Below are positions 22,246 to 63,785 of a stretch of DNA of 64,000 nt, one piece after another. Every line of letters begins with the position of its first letter. Within the stretch, counting starts at the first letter, position 1. The position numbers and the translations under genes are program-made. The notes under the pieces were generated by a model. It searched no databases, had not been told where the DNA came from, and saw nothing but the letters and a program-made list of their open reading frames with translations. This stretch comes from Kalmusia sp. IMI 367209 (lineage: Eukaryota > Ascomycota > Dothideomycetes > Pleosporales > Didymosphaeriaceae): contig JAPEUQ010000002.1 in the NCBI GenBank assembly GCA_027946365.1, positions 2,294,001 through 2,358,000 on the forward strand, written 5' to 3'.

Positions 22246-23255
22246 CTCTATAGTTATAAAGTCTATCTTAGGTATTATATTTATAAAGTAAATCTTCTAG
22301 TAAATTTATAGAGTTATATCTAAGATTATTTAATACTTTAGTCTAGTAATAGAGTCTATTTTTAATCTAGTTACTTTACTTCTACCCTATTCTATCTTTT
22401 TTTTTTAATACTCTACGCTATCCGCTCTATCTACTAGCTATTTAATGAAGCGGCGTCATATCGCGTAGAAATTAATCTTATAAGGGATAGCTTTAAGAGG
22501 AATTTATTAATACTATATTTAGTAATCTTTATACTAAGTATATTAGTCATTTAAAGCGCGTTAAGATATTTAAGTAAGTATTTTTATTTCTGGGCTATAG
22601 TGTTATATTAATGATTCTAGTTATAAGTTATTATAGGGTAAGTTCTATAAGGCTTATTATATCTTTAAGGTTACTTATTATTATAATTTAGAAATATATA
22701 TTAATTCTTTAGAATTACATCGCGTTCTTTAATAGTGGTTAGAGTATATATATCTATTTTAATATAATAATAATATTTATATTATTAAATATAATATTAT
22801 TAATACTAATCTTTTATAATCTACTAAGGATACTTTACCTATTTTTATATCTAAGTTTTATAAGTATTTACGTTAATATAATACTTACCTTAATATAGCT
22901 TTATATAATCCCCTTTCTAGCTAAACCTAGATTCTTTCTAGATTTATATACCCCGTTCCGCCACTCCGCGCCTTCTACTAATAATTTACTTAGTGGCGTT
23001 CTAACTATATTATCTCTTACTATTATACTAGTTTAAAATTATAGCGATTAGAATTATAATATAACCTACTTTATTTAGATATTATAAGTTAAATATATAA
23101 TGTCTCCTAGTAGCTATATTATACTAATAAGAATATAAACTAGCGTATAGATAAGGTTATATATACTTAGTTATAAACTATAATTATTTTATCTAGTCTA
23201 GTAGATCACCTTAGGGTGGCGTTAGTAAATCTATAAATTAAGGGTATATTAGAGA

Positions 23256-23450
23256 TAGACTGGCAAATGGGTTAGGGTTAATCATAGATAGATTAGGGTT
23301 GAGTTAGCTATTACTAAGCATTGGGTATAGGTTAGGGTTGAGTCATATGAACCTTAGATATAGGTTAAGGTTAGATTATATAGACTCTAGGTGTAGGTTA
23401 GGGTTAGGTCATATAGACCTTAGGTATAGGTTAGATTAAGGGTTCCTATC
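23256..23450 (+). repeat. Left terminal/subterminal repeat region of T1 with TTAGGGTT-like motifs
   Basis: After the terminal TAGACTGGCAAATGGG there are about eight GGTTAGGGTT or GGTATAGGTTAGGGTT-like motifs spaced irregularly over some 190 bp. The mirror set (CCTAACCCTAACCT) is at about 29080-29235. Clustered short motifs just inside the ends are typical transposase-binding regions of hAT elements. The likeness to telomere repeats is noted but the spacing is irregular. Confidence 0.7.
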
Positions 23451-23899
23451 TAGGTTAGATTTATATAACGGTAATTTATATTAATATTTTATATAATTCT
23501 ATTACTAGAAAGTATATTTAGGGAAACGTCTATAACTTTTATAGAATACTCTACTAGCGGAAGTCAGAGATATGAATTATTTATTTATAATAGCTATTAA
23601 ACACGGTAATGTAAAGGAGGTTAAACCCTTTAATATTTACGTGGTTGGAGTATTTACTCCCTATTTATACTAGGAATATATATAATATCTTCCTACTCTA
23701 TAATCTCTTCTTATTTATAACCTCTTTCCTCTCTGTAATCTCTTCCTCCTCACTATACTACTATCTATATAATCTAAATAGATTAAAAGCTATAAAAGAT
23801 TATTTACTTTATTATAAGGTACTAGGTTATCCTCTATAATAATATATTGCTCCTTCTCTTAAAAAATTATATACTTAAAAATATGATCTACTAAATTCT

Positions 23900-26050
23900 C
23901 TAGACTAAAAGATGGTGTCTCCAATCTCTAATTATATCTCTTATAATATTAAAAATATACTTAATACTTACTATAGTAATCTAAATAGGTAGAATATCTT
24001 TTATAATTTAGGTAAGATAAGGATAAGTATCCTTATTTACTTTCTATCACTGTAAAATATCAAAAGATTCACCTATAATAATATAAGATATACTTAGATA
24101 AGCTTTTCTTTCTAATATATTACCCTTACTCTTCTTTTATATATGTTAAGCTAGTACCCTAGTTTTGGCTAGATACTAAAATACTACTTAACTATAATTA
24201 GTTTAAGGATGGGGCTTCCAGAACTACTCTATACCTAATAATTATCTAGGATAGATAGTTAGACTAGAGTAAAATCTCTAGTTTCTTTATTATTATAGTA
24301 ATTAAGGTATTGAAGAAATTATTAACGATAGTTATATTTATTCTAAGCTTTCTAAGTATTATCCTATAGATAGTATTAGTATTACTATAATAAATAGCTA
24401 TAATAATAATACCTTATATACTATAAGCTTTATGTTAGATTAAGAATAGTTACGTAGTTAAATAAGAAGCCCCACTCTATATCTATTTTTAAATAGTACT
24501 TACTTAGTTTAGCTTATCCTTTTCTAGCTATAGCTTTTACTACTATTAGTCACTTTATATTATCTCTATTCTCTAAATCTTTACTAAGCTCTTCCATCAT
24601 CTTATCTAAAAAATTAAAGTTAATTATATATAAGCTAGATATATTAGATCTATAGTTTTTAGTTCTAACTTAAAGAGTTGATTGTATCCTTAACCTCTTT
24701 AGTATAGCTGTGATAAGCTTAAGGTGGTGCTACTTAGTATGAGATAGTTAAAGTCATTTAAGGTTATAGAAATCTACCTCCGCGTTATTATTATTACTAG
24801 TAGCCCTAGTAATATAAGGAGTCATTTTTAAGTTAATTTCTTATTTAAGCTGTTTATTAATATATAACTAGAACTTAACTACGCGATCATACATATCAAA
24901 CGTCGAATTCTAATAAGTTCTTATATCTTATATAATAGAGAGACGTTCTTTTAGTAGTAGGGATTACTAAGTAATAATAAAACGTTTAAAATATTATAGG
25001 GATTAATTAATCACTTTATATATTACCTAAAGCTAGCCATAACTTAGTCTATAATAAATATCTATAATAAAAAGCTAGTTTACCTTCTAAAGAGAATTTG
25101 GTATTAAAATTTCTAATTAAATCTTATTTATATAGCGCTATTATAGATTCTCTTTAACCTCTAGCTTATTAGGAGTTGCTAGCTTAAGATGCTGAATGAT
25201 ATCCTGGATAACCAGATTAATAATATAAGCGAGGCATAGAACCGTATTTTTAGTAGAATCTTAATTAATATCTTCTTCTTATAGTTAAGTTTAGATAGTA
25301 TAAGCTAGTGTTTTATTATTACTAGTATTATTATATATAATAGCTAGAAGTTGCTACTTAGTATTCGTATTAGATAGAACCTATAGTACTTCTAATACTA
25401 TAGAAGTACCTATATAGCTTCTATAAATTGAGATAAATTAAATAGCTTCTTATAAAATTCCTAGTTATTATTAATATAATACCCTTTACTGTAAGAAAGC
25501 TAAGATGGTTTCTTATAGACTAAGTATCTAAGGTAATTAAGATCTTCGTAGTTTTATAAAGATTATAAAGTAGAAAAGCTTTAGCTATTTTAATTTAATT
25601 TTAGAATATTAACTATAATTTATAACGGCTCATTATTATAGTATTAAGCCTAAGGTATTAAAGGAAGCGTTGAAAGGATGGCCTCTCTACTATTTAGAAA
25701 GACTAGTTATTATCTATTATTATCTATATAAGTTTATTCTCATAGGTCATAGGAGAATATAATGAGACTAGTGTTATAGTATTTTAATAATATAGAGGCT
25801 GGACCATAGGTATAGATAACTAAATATATATAGGAGTTAGAGTCTCCTTATAAGATTAAGTATTAAGGTGATTTATAAGATGCTTAGTTCTAATTATTTT
25901 AACTATTAGATGTTAAAGTACAAATCCGTAATTAAGATAGAATATATATAGGTAACTATCTATATACTATATGGCCTCTTTAAATTGGGTCTAGATTTGG
26001 CTAAAATGAGAGGTTGAATTCCACTATAAATTATGAGTTAAAGGATCCGT
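23900..26050 (-). pseudogene. hAT transposase relic of T1
   Basis: In one minus-strand frame several hAT transposase landmarks lie in order. A region equivalent to CxAHIINLVVQD is at 25204-25250, readable as CLAYIINLVIQD. Some 100 codons later, DIRTxWNSTFDMxDRVVK is at about 24871-24930. Stops in between are mostly TAA or TAG at likely Gln or Trp positions. The catalytic RNase H-like fold and the C-terminal dimerisation region could not be followed to the end, so both borders are approximate. This family moves DNA by cut-and-paste in the nucleus. Confidence 0.65.
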
Positions 26051-26539
26051 AGCCTATATAGTTTACTCTATTACTTATTTTATATAGAACAATTTCGCTT
26101 TATTCCTTATTATATTCGTTATTTATAGATGGATATTTAATTAATATTAGGGTACTCTAAGTTCCCCTCTAATAATTTAGGGGCGCTTAATTAGAATTAA
26201 TTAAGGATAGGTAGAAACTGTGGGGATTAAAGTAGATGTCATAAATAGAATAGATAAGAATAGTAGTATAATAAAAGATATAATAAAACTAAAAAGTTAT
26301 AAAATATATTAGTAGCCTAAGAGGGTTTAATGCGTATATTTCCATTCATAACTATAAGATAGGGTGTAGGGCTTATGATATTCTAGTACGTCTGTTTACA
26401 TTCTAAGTACATTCTATAATAAGTGAGTATTAAAATCATAAATGATATATTTATATTCTAAGTAAATAATCTATAATTATTAGCTATATTAACTATTACT
26501 AGCTAATTACAGTTAAGCAGAGTGTTAAAACTTAACTAA

Positions 26540-27802
26540 GATCTACCTTTTAATATTTAAGTATTTATTCTATAGTAGACTCTAATACTTAATCGTCTTT
26601 ATTAGAAAACCCCTTAAAATCTATAAAGCCCTTAAACTTCTCCTTACTATTATTATTATCCTCATCCTTATCTTTATTAATAGAGGTTTTATATTCATCA
26701 TCCCCTCATTATACGTAGCGTTAATCTTAGAGTTATAGTTAACTTCTTCTTTATACTTATTACTCTTATTACTAAGAATATATGGCAAATTGCTTTTAAG
26801 CGTAATATCTTCTCTCCTAGATATATACTTAAGAATAGATGTAGGCTTATAACGTCTAGTGTAATTAGTATATAAGCGTAATAAAAGAATATAATAAACT
26901 TATTACTAGTCCTTATCTATTATTATAGCTAACTCTTCTTTAGTAAAACTATTTATAAATTATTGCTAATTAGTTTTAGTCTTTTTACTTTTAAATATAT
27001 TACTTTTAAGCTTTACTAAGTCGTCTTTATAGATATTTTATATAATTTTCTTAAGGGTATCGCTTTAGATCTATAGAGTCATAACTCTCTATAGCCTTAA
27101 AGTTATCTATTAGGAGAGCTTTTACTAGTCTAGGCTAGTTTCTCTAGGGATTTATAGTACTGCCTAAGGGAAACTTTATAATTAAGCTTCTCCCATTTCT
27201 GGTGGACTCATTATAGCTAAGCTACTAGCTATTCACCTACACCTTATAAGTATAAATATATAATAAATTACTATTATAATTTACTATTCTTCTAATTCTA
27301 AAAGCGCTAATCTAAAAGCTTCTTCTATTCTATCTTAAGATAGTTTTCTTTATATCCTTAGATAGAGAAGTATATATATCTTATTTTTAAGTCTCTTCTT
27401 AAGTATACTTTTGGTAGAACGATTAGTAGTATTAGTGCTCTTAATAGCCTTAATCTCTCTATTATATAGAGTAGCTTAATCTCTTTACTAAACAGCATAA
27501 GCACTATTACTAAGTATACCCTTAAATAGTACTAATAAATTTATAGAACGACCTTTTGAGAACCGCTCTATCTATATAGTAAGAGGATATAATCGATTTC
27601 TTACTCTTTAGAAGTAAAACCCTATATAAATTAGTTTATACTATAATAATAAACTAGAATAAATATCTCTATAAGCTTATCCTACTTATTATAGTTATAT
27701 CCAGCTGGTATCTTACACTTAATACTAGGTAGTAAACCCTTAGGACGATCTAGATAATTAGTCTCTTTAATAGGCTCTTATTTAATAGGTGGAGACTTCA
27801 TT
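26540..27802 (-). pseudogene. Second reading frame of T1, unrecognised
   Basis: An ATG at 27800-27802 opens a minus-strand frame beginning MKSPPIK, with a GYNYNKxDKLIEIF-like stretch some 35 codons in. RIP-type stops appear soon after. The remainder has Lys/Ile/Leu-rich segments typical of decayed coding sequence. It lies upstream of the transposase in the same orientation, so it could be an N-terminal DNA-binding exon of the transposase or a separate protein. I do not recognise a domain with confidence. Confidence 0.35.
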
Positions 27803-28317
27803 GCGTAGAAACTATAATAAAGGTATATAGTAACTTATAGAGTAATCCTATAAAAGTACGATAGTAGAAGATAGGTAGAAGAAAGTTAATAGGGGACTAA
27901 CTATAAATATAGTTAAGTGAGATTTAGTAGCCTATGTATAACGCTAGCACGGTATAATAATAATAAATAATAATAATTATATATTACATATATATATATA
28001 GCAACTAAAAAAGTCGTATTACTATAGTAAGAGTATTAATTAAAAGCGTATCTTAAGCTCTTTCCTATATGAATTATCACGGAAATTTATCACGGAGTTA
28101 TTATAATATACGCTAATAGAGTTTATAAATTAACTTATCTAACTTTTATATTTTCTTTTTATCTTTACTTTCTCCCTTTATTTTTATTTTCTTACTTTTA
28201 TATTTACCGTTATATAACTATTACCTTAGTGACTAAACTTCTACTTTCTACTTCTACTTTTTACTTCTATTTTTAATTGCTCTAACTTTTATCGCTGCTC
28301 TATAAACTCTATCTATA
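27803..28317. promoter_or_regulatory. Divergent intergenic region with CT-rich leader before the H3-like gene
   Basis: About 515 bp separate the start codons of the minus-strand frame and the plus-strand H3-like gene. The last 180 bp (about 28140-28317) are pyrimidine-rich on the plus strand, with repeated CTTCTACTTT and TTTTATCTTTAC motifs. This is typical of leaders and core promoters of strongly expressed fungal genes. Function is inferred. Confidence 0.4.
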
Positions 28318-28731
28318 ATGGCTAGATCTAAATAAGTTACTACTAAAAAGCCTCACCATAAGCTAGTAACTAGTGGAAAAAACTCTAAGAAAAATTTAGC
28401 TAATAAGGCTACGCGCGAGAAGATCACTAGTAATATAAAGAAAAAGCGGCACTTTAAGCTAGATAATAAGTTATTATAGCTTCTAATTATATTCTTAAGC
28501 TAATAGAATATAGCGGTGGCGCTTAGAGAGATTAGGTAATATTAAAAAACTATAGAGCTATTTATTTATAAGCTTCTATTCTTACGTCTTGTTTATGAGC
28601 TAGTTTATACCTATAAGCTAGACTTACGCATCTAGGCTTCTATACTAAGTACTCTTTAAGAAGCTACTGAGGCGTTTATGGTTGGATATCTTAAAGGTAT
28701 ATACCTCTAATCAGTATATTAACTATTAAGT
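28318..28731 (+). pseudogene. Histone H3-like gene carried by T1, RIP-damaged
   Basis: The frame from the ATG at 28318 reads MARSK, a stop in place of the Q of the H3 MARTKQ start, then a basic tail. GKNSKKNLANKATREK aligns with the H3 tail segment GKAPRKQLATKAARK (residues 13-27), keeping counterparts of K4, K9, K18 and K23. After an extra 15-20 codons, VALREIR starts the histone fold (28513). It is followed by KTIELFIYKL, FLRLVYELV, YKLDLRI, a stop at the conserved Gln of FQSSA, and EATEAFMVG. These correspond in order to alpha-N, alpha-1, loop 1 and alpha-2 of H3. Loop 1 has the length of canonical H3, not of centromeric CenH3. Six of the stops are TAA or TAG, several at H3 Gln positions (CAA/CAG to TAA/TAG). 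The extreme C-terminus may continue near 28814-28860 (SVTTKD-like) but is uncertain. It cannot now make a full protein. Confidence 0.8.
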
Positions 28732-29079
28732 AAATATTTATTTTCCTAGACTACTAAATAAATACAATCTATATAAAGAGGGTTATAATTTAGATTAAAG
28801 ATTCTTATTTAGTAAAGCGTTACTACTAAAGATACTATATCCTATACGTTCTATTAAATTAAGGAGAAAACCTATTAGGAGTAGTAGTTATAGGTCATAA
28901 AGCTTTAGTAGTAATAAATCTGAGTTATACTGTTATAATTAACTATAATAAATACGTGATAGTTAATATTACCTAGCTACCCTAGTATCTACCTTAATAA
29001 TAATCATAATTAAAAAAACGACTAAGACGTAAATAGAAATATATTAATTAATTATGATTACTCAGACCCTAGACATAAC

Positions 29080-29235
29080 CATATACCTAACCCTAACCTA
29101 ACCCTGATTTTAGTAACCTAACCCTAACCTATATCTATTACTAGCGCTAAATTAATGGGTTTAGGTATAGGTTAGGTTAGGGTCTTATATAATCTAACCT
29201 AACCTTAACCTAACCTATACCCATTTGCCAGTCTA
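29080..29235 (-). repeat. Right terminal/subterminal repeat region of T1
   Basis: Mirror of 23256-23450. CCTAACCCTAACCT-like motifs are grouped in the last 155 bp and end in CCCATTTGCCAGTCTA. Confidence 0.7.
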
Positions 29236-32200
29236 ATTAGAGATACTATACTCTTATTTTATTCTTAGTCTACCTCATCCTTATATTATTTTAATATATC
29301 CTTAAAATTATTATTATAATGATTATACTTTATTATTATATTCTTTTAATTATTATTATAACTATTATACTCTTTAAGCTAATATCTTTATAGCTTTACT
29401 TTAGTTTCTTTAGTGGTTAGGTGGGTATCTTTATTATTATCCTTAAAGTAGATACCCTCTTTAGTTTATAGTTATATAAATGCTAAGTTAATTCCTTATT
29501 ACGTTTTAATATTTCTATTATAATATTATAATATATTACTTTAATCTTCTCTTTAAGCTATTATTATTCTAAGCGTCCCTCTATAGGGTTTAAACTAATT
29601 TAGCGCTTCCGTGTCTACTATATTATTAAGTAGGATCTATATTAACGTAATCTATTTTAACTATTTTACTAGAACTTATTAGTCTCCTTCTTATATATCT
29701 TATATTTTAAGTATCTCCTTTATCTCCCTATTTATATAGGTCTAGATCTTCCTTCTCTAGTCTTAAAGTTAGGTCTAGTTATAGATTATATTATATCTAG
29801 CTTAAAAGTAGGTTAGTTATAGCCTACTCTAGAAGATCTATATATATAGTTTTATAGAGGTTTCTAGGAAGGTCTAGTATTACTATAAATAGTAAGGATA
29901 TATCTACTACTATATATTTTACCTAAAGCTAGTTTAACTTTTTCTTAAGCTAGTTTATTTTAATATTATATATAAAGAACTAGACTTTATTATCTTTTTA
30001 AAATTATTCTACTAGTCTATAGGAGGAGTCTATCCATTCTATAATTCATTATTAAGTAAATATAATTATAACTTAGGCTAATACTATTCTCTATTTTAGG
30101 TAGTTAAGAAACTAGACCACTTATTCTATAGATATATAATGGGATTTATCTTTTATAGAGATATATTTAAGTAGGTCTATATGATATCCGTTTAGTAGTA
30201 GTGTTAGAGACATTCTAGTAATACTAGAATTCTAGTTATTAAGTATAAGTTAGTAGGCTAAAGGCATTCTATCTAGTTATCTTATTTAAAGTTTACTATT
30301 ATTTATAGAATTATTTATATCTTTTAGTTTAAACGCTTCGTGCCGCCATTAGTCTAGAGGTAGTAGATAGTAAATAATAGCTATTTAGTATCTACTTTTT
30401 ATAGAGTATAGTCTAGAATTTTCCTAATTAGTCTAATCCTCTATTAGTAATAATTAAACTAGAGAACCTATAGAATTATTACTATACGTCTTAAAAGTAT
30501 TTTATATAATCTTTAACCTTTATTAATTTTATTATCTCTAACTATATGAATTTGGACAGCCGGTCCGTTATTATAAGTAGATAATATAGGGTTATAGTAG
30601 AGGTGTATAGTAAATCTACTATAAAGTCTATAGAGATCTAGGACTAATATTAGTCTATGATTAAGAATAACTATAGTAGTCCTTATTACTTTTTATAGTT
30701 AATATATACTTTAAAATAGTAATAGTTCTATATATATTTTACTATATCCTATAATATATTATCCTAGTAATAGTTTTATTATAGTAGCTTAAATATTATA
30801 TTCTTTTTTAAGTAGCTAATTATTATTAATTCATATACCCTTTAGATTAGAGTAATGATTAGAGGTTCCTATTTAGAAATCTAGAGTATTCCTCTCTAGA
30901 GTATATTCCTATATATATTAATTATATAGTTATTAATCTAGCGTTACGTTTTTATAACTAGGGGAAGGTATAGTTTTTATAAATACTATTTTATATTAGA
31001 TATAATACCTATCGTCCGTTATTACGGTCCTATCCTATAGTTATTAAAAATGGGTATTAGTAAAGAATTAGGTTCTATATAGTCTAGCTCACTCTTGAGT
31101 TTTTATTATATAAACGTAGATAATTTATAAATATATAAGTAGTCCTTTAATTTATTCTCTACGTCCTCTATTTTATTCTTATTAATTTAGGGCGTCTAGT
31201 TATTCTATTTATAAGCTAGGGTAGTATTAGAGATAGTATTAAAAAGTAAATAATATTTCTAACTATTAATATTATCTTTACTTAATTTATAAATATATAT
31301 AAAGTATTCTAGGTTCTTATAATCTATAAGGATTATAAATAGGTTCTATATACTAATAAGTTCTAGTTTCTATACTACTATATATTATACTATAGTAAGT
31401 AGTTCTTTATTATAGATTATATAGTTCTATTATATTTATATAAGGCTAGCTAAATGGTAGGTAACTAGATACTAAATCCCTTCTTCTAATTAAGATAGAT
31501 AATTTTTATTATCCTTCTAGAGTAATCTACCTCTAGTCTTATATCCTTTTAGGGTCCTAGAGTACTAGGACTGGCCTCATAATAAATACTATCTTAAGGA
31601 CGTAGAAAGCTTTATCCTTCCTTTCTATTTAATAGAACAGGGTATCCTTTTTATAAGATAATAGAGTAGTTCTACTAATTTAATAAAATTCTATAAAAAA
31701 TTATAATAGAAGTTTATAAATCTAATAAAGTATTAGACTTCTTATATTATTATAGGGTATTTCTATAGTTATATGGCTTAAATCTTTTTAGGGTCTAGGC
31801 GGATGGAGTCTCCTACTATTATAATATAGTTAAGGTACTTAACTTTCTTTATAAGTAAATTTATATTTTATTAAGTTTAAATTAAGGCCTACTTCGTGGA
31901 GCTGTTAAAGGATTTTCTAGATATATTTCTAGTATTCTAATAATAACCCCTCTATATAAATTAAAATATTATCTAGGTATACTATATATATAGTATCTAG
32001 GATTCTTTTAAGGATTCTATTAATATATTATTAAAACGTGGTAAGAGCTCCCGTAAGCCTAAATAGAATAATTAACTATTTAAATAGACTAAACTAGGTC
32101 TAGAATACTATTCTATACTTCTTCCCCTTAGCTATATAGAGTTTATAAAATATTACTTAAATATTTATTTTAGTAAACCACCTCACTTTAAAGAGTATTT

Positions 32201-62253: not shown

Positions 62254-63785
<1,532 letters not shown>

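Follow-up and report, generated by a model that had tools for sequence, protein, structure and literature searches.

We found that a 64,000-nt stretch of the Kalmusia sp. IMI 367209 genome, referred to here as the window, most probably (roughly three chances in four) carries a three-gene hAT transposon of the Pyrenophora tritici-repentis kind, in a copy killed by RIP. The element encodes a transposase, a central protein with an acidic tail, and a histone H3 variant, H3L, which under this reading is a spliced gene that has long belonged to the element itself. Histones are normally fixed genes of the host; if a transposon lineage has retained an H3 of its own along with a conserved partner, it would provide a natural test of the ability of mobile elements to shape chromatin of their own. 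The window corresponds to C12:2294001-2358000 in an assembly of 42.8 Mb and 30 contigs.

The AT-rich part of the window is the site of the hAT element, the limits of which are given below.

23248-23255, unstranded: left 8-bp target duplication, ATTAGAGA, an exact match to 29236-29243
23256-29235, unstranded: whole hAT element, 5,980 bp, one of 15 full-length copies, defined by exact ends, genome-wide end pairs and copy-to-copy alignment
23256-23271, plus strand: left terminal inverted repeat, 16 bp, TAGACTGGCAAATGGG, exact
29220-29235, minus strand: right terminal inverted repeat, 16 bp, TAGACTGGCAAATGGG inverted, exact
29236-29243, unstranded: right 8-bp target duplication, ATTAGAGA, identical to the left copy

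The first-pass annotation of this DNA had described a hAT-like transposon with exact terminal inverted repeats and 8-bp target duplications, and both parts of that description held: the 16-bp ends are exact, the flanking 8-mers are identical, and a Dimer_Tnp_hAT domain was detected at an E value of 1.2e-18 in another copy (L011). Short terminal inverted repeats, as expected of a hAT element, are found in the window copy and in the copies across the genome. The 8-bp target duplication matches at 8/8 positions in 10 of the 15 full-length copies, the window copy included, and at 7/8 in one, while no match was seen in four (L009, L011, L017 and L019). These four all lie less than 15 kb from a contig end, a position that would suit copies spread by recombination and not by transposition. 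Among all element insertions, 10 of 22 lie less than 21 kb from a contig end against an expected share of 2.9% (binomial 2.3e-10), the 21-kb limit having been chosen after the data were seen. The contigs may end in repeats at which the assembly broke; a search for a telomere-repeat pattern, which passes over simple repeats, had 0 matches. Runs like CCCAACCCAACC adjoin the inverted ends (at the ends of L022 and at window positions 29080-29235) and may be subterminal repeats bound by the transposase; RIP converts runs of this type into telomere-like CCTAACCCTAACC. The sequence of the element ends was not found in the literature searched.

A pattern search with the end sequence gave 37 matches genome-wide, 32 of them exact and five with one mismatch. 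Thirty of these ends delimit 15 full-length copies, each 5.95-6.0 kb long (L009-L023, with the window copy as L015), and seven are unpaired. Thirteen of the 15 align end to end with the window copy; the alignments of L021 and L022 fall short of the last 15 bases at one end, which reflects the cutting of the copies. The H3L segment is present in every full-length copy (15/15), RIPed and barely RIPed alike. A one-off insertion of H3 is thereby ruled out, and copies with the same ends and no H3 segment, which the first pass had named as the observation that would speak against it, did not turn up. H3L was also seen within about 6 kb of five of the seven unpaired ends (L024, L026, L028, and L032 and L043 on C26); in the 6 kb next to the other two, at C10:9506 (L025) and C17:18002 (L027), it was not found.

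These copies carry different loads of RIP. GC is 26-31% in four of them (L012, L013, L016 and the window copy) and 38-40% in the other 11, which we call barely RIPed. Using as reference the base common to at least seven of nine barely mutated copies, we counted 839 substitutions in the window copy, 827 of which are C>T or G>A; CpA sites were changed at 523 of 661 positions and CpT sites at 58 of 907. The window copy has been mutated by RIP, as the first-pass annotation had proposed. More heavily RIPed copies are also present: one on C13 (L050) keeps pieces of the transposase, the central gene and H3L in the same order, and three stretches with weak or odd matches (C13, C20) appear to be copies of this family with heavy RIP. 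More divergent element families, sought in the genome for dN/dS analysis, were not found. We infer at least two rounds of spread. Three full-length copies lie within 21 kb at C29:1549823-1570492, of which L021 and L022 are lightly RIPed and L020 hardly.

The structure of the H3L gene was read from the barely RIPed copies and mapped to the window.

28318-28465, plus strand: H3L exon 1, from the N-terminal tail to KPG (barely RIPed copies, mapping to the window)
28466-28513, plus strand: H3L intron 1, 48 nt (barely RIPed copies, with a GTAAGT donor and a GATATAG acceptor)
28514-28696, plus strand: H3L exon 2, VALREIR to GYLE (barely RIPed copies, mapping; PF00125 match)
28697-28749, plus strand: H3L intron 2, 53 nt (barely RIPed copies, mapping)
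28750-28862, plus strand: H3L exon 3 with the stop, DCQMNAIHAKRVTIQ... in the intact copy (barely RIPed copies, mapping)

The window frame at 28318-28731 begins MARSK. Translated with X at its stops, it matched PF00125 at an E value of 8.6e-7 (29.7 bits against a cut-off of 26.4) and solved H3 chains at a best E value of 9.8e-15, ruling out a chance open frame and bearing out the H3-like plus-strand frame that had been proposed; the absence of a histone HMM match, which the first pass had said would tell against it, did not come about. The gene start it gave was right, but its end was not, since 28731 falls inside intron 2 and exon 3 reaches 28862. Likewise, the supposed insertion of 15-20 codons before VALREIR is in fact the 48-nt intron 1. 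Its placing of the stops at Gln positions was correct, as each of the eight exon stops of the window copy corresponds to a Gln codon of the intact copy; over the 147 codons, the window copy differs from the intact one by these eight stops, 39 other residue changes and six silent changes.

The intact copy is L032 on C26, beside an unpaired element end. Its H3L of 147 aa has no stop or frameshift and reached 112.4 bits against PF00125 (cut-off 26.4). It is the one intact H3L among the 12 barely RIPed rows read, the other 11 having indels or a stop; some of the indels, in single-base runs, may be assembly errors. The N-terminal tail of H3L here is altered: H3 position 9 is followed by six extra residues, and E stands in place of K27. 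Of the other four H3L rows, described below, all have K27 and three have K9. Both the altered tail and the damaged rows, even with some perhaps being assembly errors, are points in favour of the main rival reading, in which an H3 gene or transcript, not the present one of the host, was caught between hAT ends in the distant past and has been copied along since then as passive cargo, functionless and drifting. An intact frame with a complete histone fold in one copy, and a gene structure that is spliced, are harder to reconcile with such cargo.

We also considered a recent capture of the host's own H3 by the element, given that both genes are H3 and that only about 34 kb separate the window copy from the H3-H4 pair of the host. 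The host H3 starts about 0.4 kb past the window (C12:2358446), and the host H4 is at window positions 63350-63650 on the minus strand; this nearness is probably a coincidence. The introns of the host H3, read by hand, are in the R8 codon and just after VTI, whereas those of H3L are at PG^T and E^D. Moreover, H3L is only about 61% identical to the host H3 over residues 15-131, and it also occurs in the older, heavily RIPed copies.

Two protein searches with H3L, in each of which about 8,000 proteins were scored and the best 120 listed, brought up mainly ordinary and fused H3; the Pyrenophora H3L was in neither list of 120. Four outside rows (P0045 from Paraphoma, and P0053, P0055 and P0059) have EDC..NAIHA.RVTIQ.KDS.LA..YY in common with H3L; they were chosen for this signature and stand as H3-like proteins, not assigned to transposons. 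A tree was built from these five H3L rows, 15 H3 rows and the host CenH3 as the one CenH3 row. The five H3L rows fell on one side of a branch with 99/97 support, apart from H3 and from the host CenH3. With rows chosen for their signature and with long CenH3 and H3L branches, the tree shows a separation of H3L from H3 but says little on branching order. H3L does not qualify as a canonical H3, given this split and 16 H3 positions at which the H3L set and the H3 set have no residue in common, nor as CenH3, since it did not group with the host CenH3 (one row, long branches). Among these 16 positions, C/A110 is replaced by N and L/I130 by Y in all five rows, and L103 by Y or F; positions 110 and 130 lie at the H3:H3' contact.

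On this evidence, H3L is not a recent copy of the host H3, because its introns lie elsewhere and it groups separately; recent host capture was rejected on the intron sites and the tree, and we regard it as highly improbable. The passive capture of a host H3, which the first-pass annotation had called the simpler explanation, is a poor fit to the host gene, with different intron sites and a grouping outside ordinary H3. An older capture of H3 from another source may still be compatible with the data. The H3 core is maintained in all five H3L rows, which speaks against the cargo reading, and a gene long kept by the element is more likely than passive cargo.

Two further genes lie in the element, to the left of H3L.

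23825-26168, minus strand: hAT transposase region, RIPed, with the C-terminal Dimer_Tnp_hAT at left (outer limits of tblastn pieces, from the transposase of other copies)
27801-27667, 27621-27285, 27242-26904 and 26855-26589, minus strand: central gene, four exons, RIPed (mapped from the intact copy L023)
27802-28317, unstranded: gap of 516 bp separating the central gene from H3L, the two starting head to head (from the coordinates)

Dimer_Tnp_hAT (PF05699) reached 67.1 bits in L011 and 65.6 bits in L023 against a cut-off of 21.4, while the RNase-H-like fold domain PF14372 reached 21.5 bits against a cut-off of 27. The transposase is 53% identical over 316 positions to P0136 of Pyrenophora tritici-repentis, a protein in which a central-protein part is joined to a hAT-dimerisation part, resembling Manning's chimera (PMC3538342). 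The central gene is intact in the full-length copy L023 and encodes 359 aa. Its C-terminus is acidic: 34 acidic residues and one basic residue are found among the final 62. A protein search gave 16 relatives at 39-52% identity (50% to Pyrenophora proteins), 13 of them from Pyrenophora (three species), Bipolaris, Alternaria, Boeremia and Parastagonospora, with P0132 as the Parastagonospora nodorum relative. No Pfam family above cut-off and no PDB sequence match was obtained for the central protein. When a modelled Pyrenophora relative (mean pLDDT 68.7) was used for a fold search, six matches came up, none credible (best E 6.6), so that no known histone chaperone family or fold was recognised by the Pfam, PDB sequence and fold searches; a scan of viral contigs gave no relatives. 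P0134 and P0135, two of the relatives, carry about 16 extra residues at the site of the second central-gene intron (KS^AEWL), as if the intron had been translated, and this intron site may be conserved.

We propose, as a tentative model, the following working of the element. The transposase would cut and paste the element, leaving the 8-bp duplications. H3L and the central gene, which start head to head, would be expressed together from the 516-bp gap, a possible shared promoter. H3L would pair with host H4 and form nucleosomes of its own, and the acidic central protein would escort it, a role that is a guess from its acidic tail and its H3L neighbour. H3L chromatin on or near the element would then be harder to silence, favouring transposition. 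We hold this functional step to be possible though doubtful. The loss of K27 is confined to H3L here, so an escape from silencing is not supported across the clade, which counts against the anti-silencing step. Alternatively, for this step, H3L might compete with or poison ordinary H3 nucleosomes across the host genome, loosening silencing everywhere; the complete histone fold with changed residues in its C-terminal half would suit such an action, while a cost to the host would be expected from it, and we judge it quite unlikely.

Elements of this kind are known. The first-pass annotation knew of no standard hAT that encodes a histone, a statement contradicted by papers of 2013 (PMC3538342, the first report of H3L-carrying hAT elements) and 2019 (PMC6710886). 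In Pyrenophora tritici-repentis, a 5.6-kb hAT element was described with a transposase, a 'central ORF' and H3L between inverted ends (Manning 2013, PMC3538342). The element here has the same three genes between its ends, at 5.98 kb, and its companions are 53% (transposase) and 50% (central protein) identical to Pyrenophora proteins. The Pyrenophora H3L is described as having an N-tail insertion and as being neither H3 nor CenH3, and ESTs were reported for it (PMC3538342). The insertion agrees with the H3L here, the likeness of the two H3L genes resting on architecture and the published description. The host is different, many copies here are RIPed, and the 2.3-kb chimeric short form was not seen among the 15 paired copies here. 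Manning suggested drift of H3L (PMC3538342), which counts against a functional H3L and lends weight to the cargo reading, as does the interpretation of the Mycosphaerellaceae case as a captured transcript by Dhillon (PMC6710886). That the three genes match the Pyrenophora set even though the companions are only 53% and 50% identical argues the other way, and we consider passive cargo unlikely. The barely RIPed copies, with H3L intact in one and the central gene in another, make the question of 2013, whether H3L is a functional histone, testable.

RIPed H3-carrying hATs were also described in Pseudocercospora fijiensis and five other Mycosphaerellaceae (Dhillon 2019, PMC6710886). These have in common with the element here the hAT type, the 8-bp duplications, the H3-like sequence and RIP. 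They are about 9.5 kb long, carry one or two H3 copies read as intronless, and a dimerisation domain was not found in the published analysis, whereas the H3L here has two introns in elements of 5.95-6.0 kb; the intronless, 9.5-kb type is thus not the one in the window. Dhillon read the Mycosphaerellaceae H3 as a captured intronless transcript or retrocopy, and put a 16-residue insertion in the second H3 copy down to mutation (PMC6710886). Compared by length alone, these 16 residues equal the 48 nt of intron 1 here. No likeness of those elements to the Pyrenophora one was reported (PMC6710886). In the literature searched, no paper on the element in further species, or on an intron reading of that insertion, was found by title or abstract. 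We suggest, with considerable reserve, that a chromatin kit has travelled with this hAT lineage for a long time, made up of an H3 variant that forms nucleosomes of its own (N110 and Y130 in all five rows) and a matching acidic head-to-head partner, and that the Mycosphaerellaceae 'retrocopies' may be the same ancient H3L, with the 16-residue insertion an unspliced intron and not a mutation. The intron finding could help to settle whether the H3-hATs published so far have a single origin.

After deRIP, repeat R25 of Parastagonospora (Stagonospora) nodorum matched H3; it also matched a DNA transposon weakly (Hane and Oliver 2010, PMC3017866). Compared by description only, it resembles the element here as a RIPed repeat with H3, and differs in being classed as an endogenous gene region in that paper (PMC3017866). 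Fungal DNA transposons with TET/JBP dioxygenases, some of them hAT, likewise carry a gene for chromatin or DNA marks; theirs is a DNA methylation enzyme, not a histone, and they occur in other fungal groups (PMC12730594). Taken together, the feature in the window is of a known kind, to which the analysis adds the gene structure of H3L, intact copies, a separate H3 clade and a conserved central partner.
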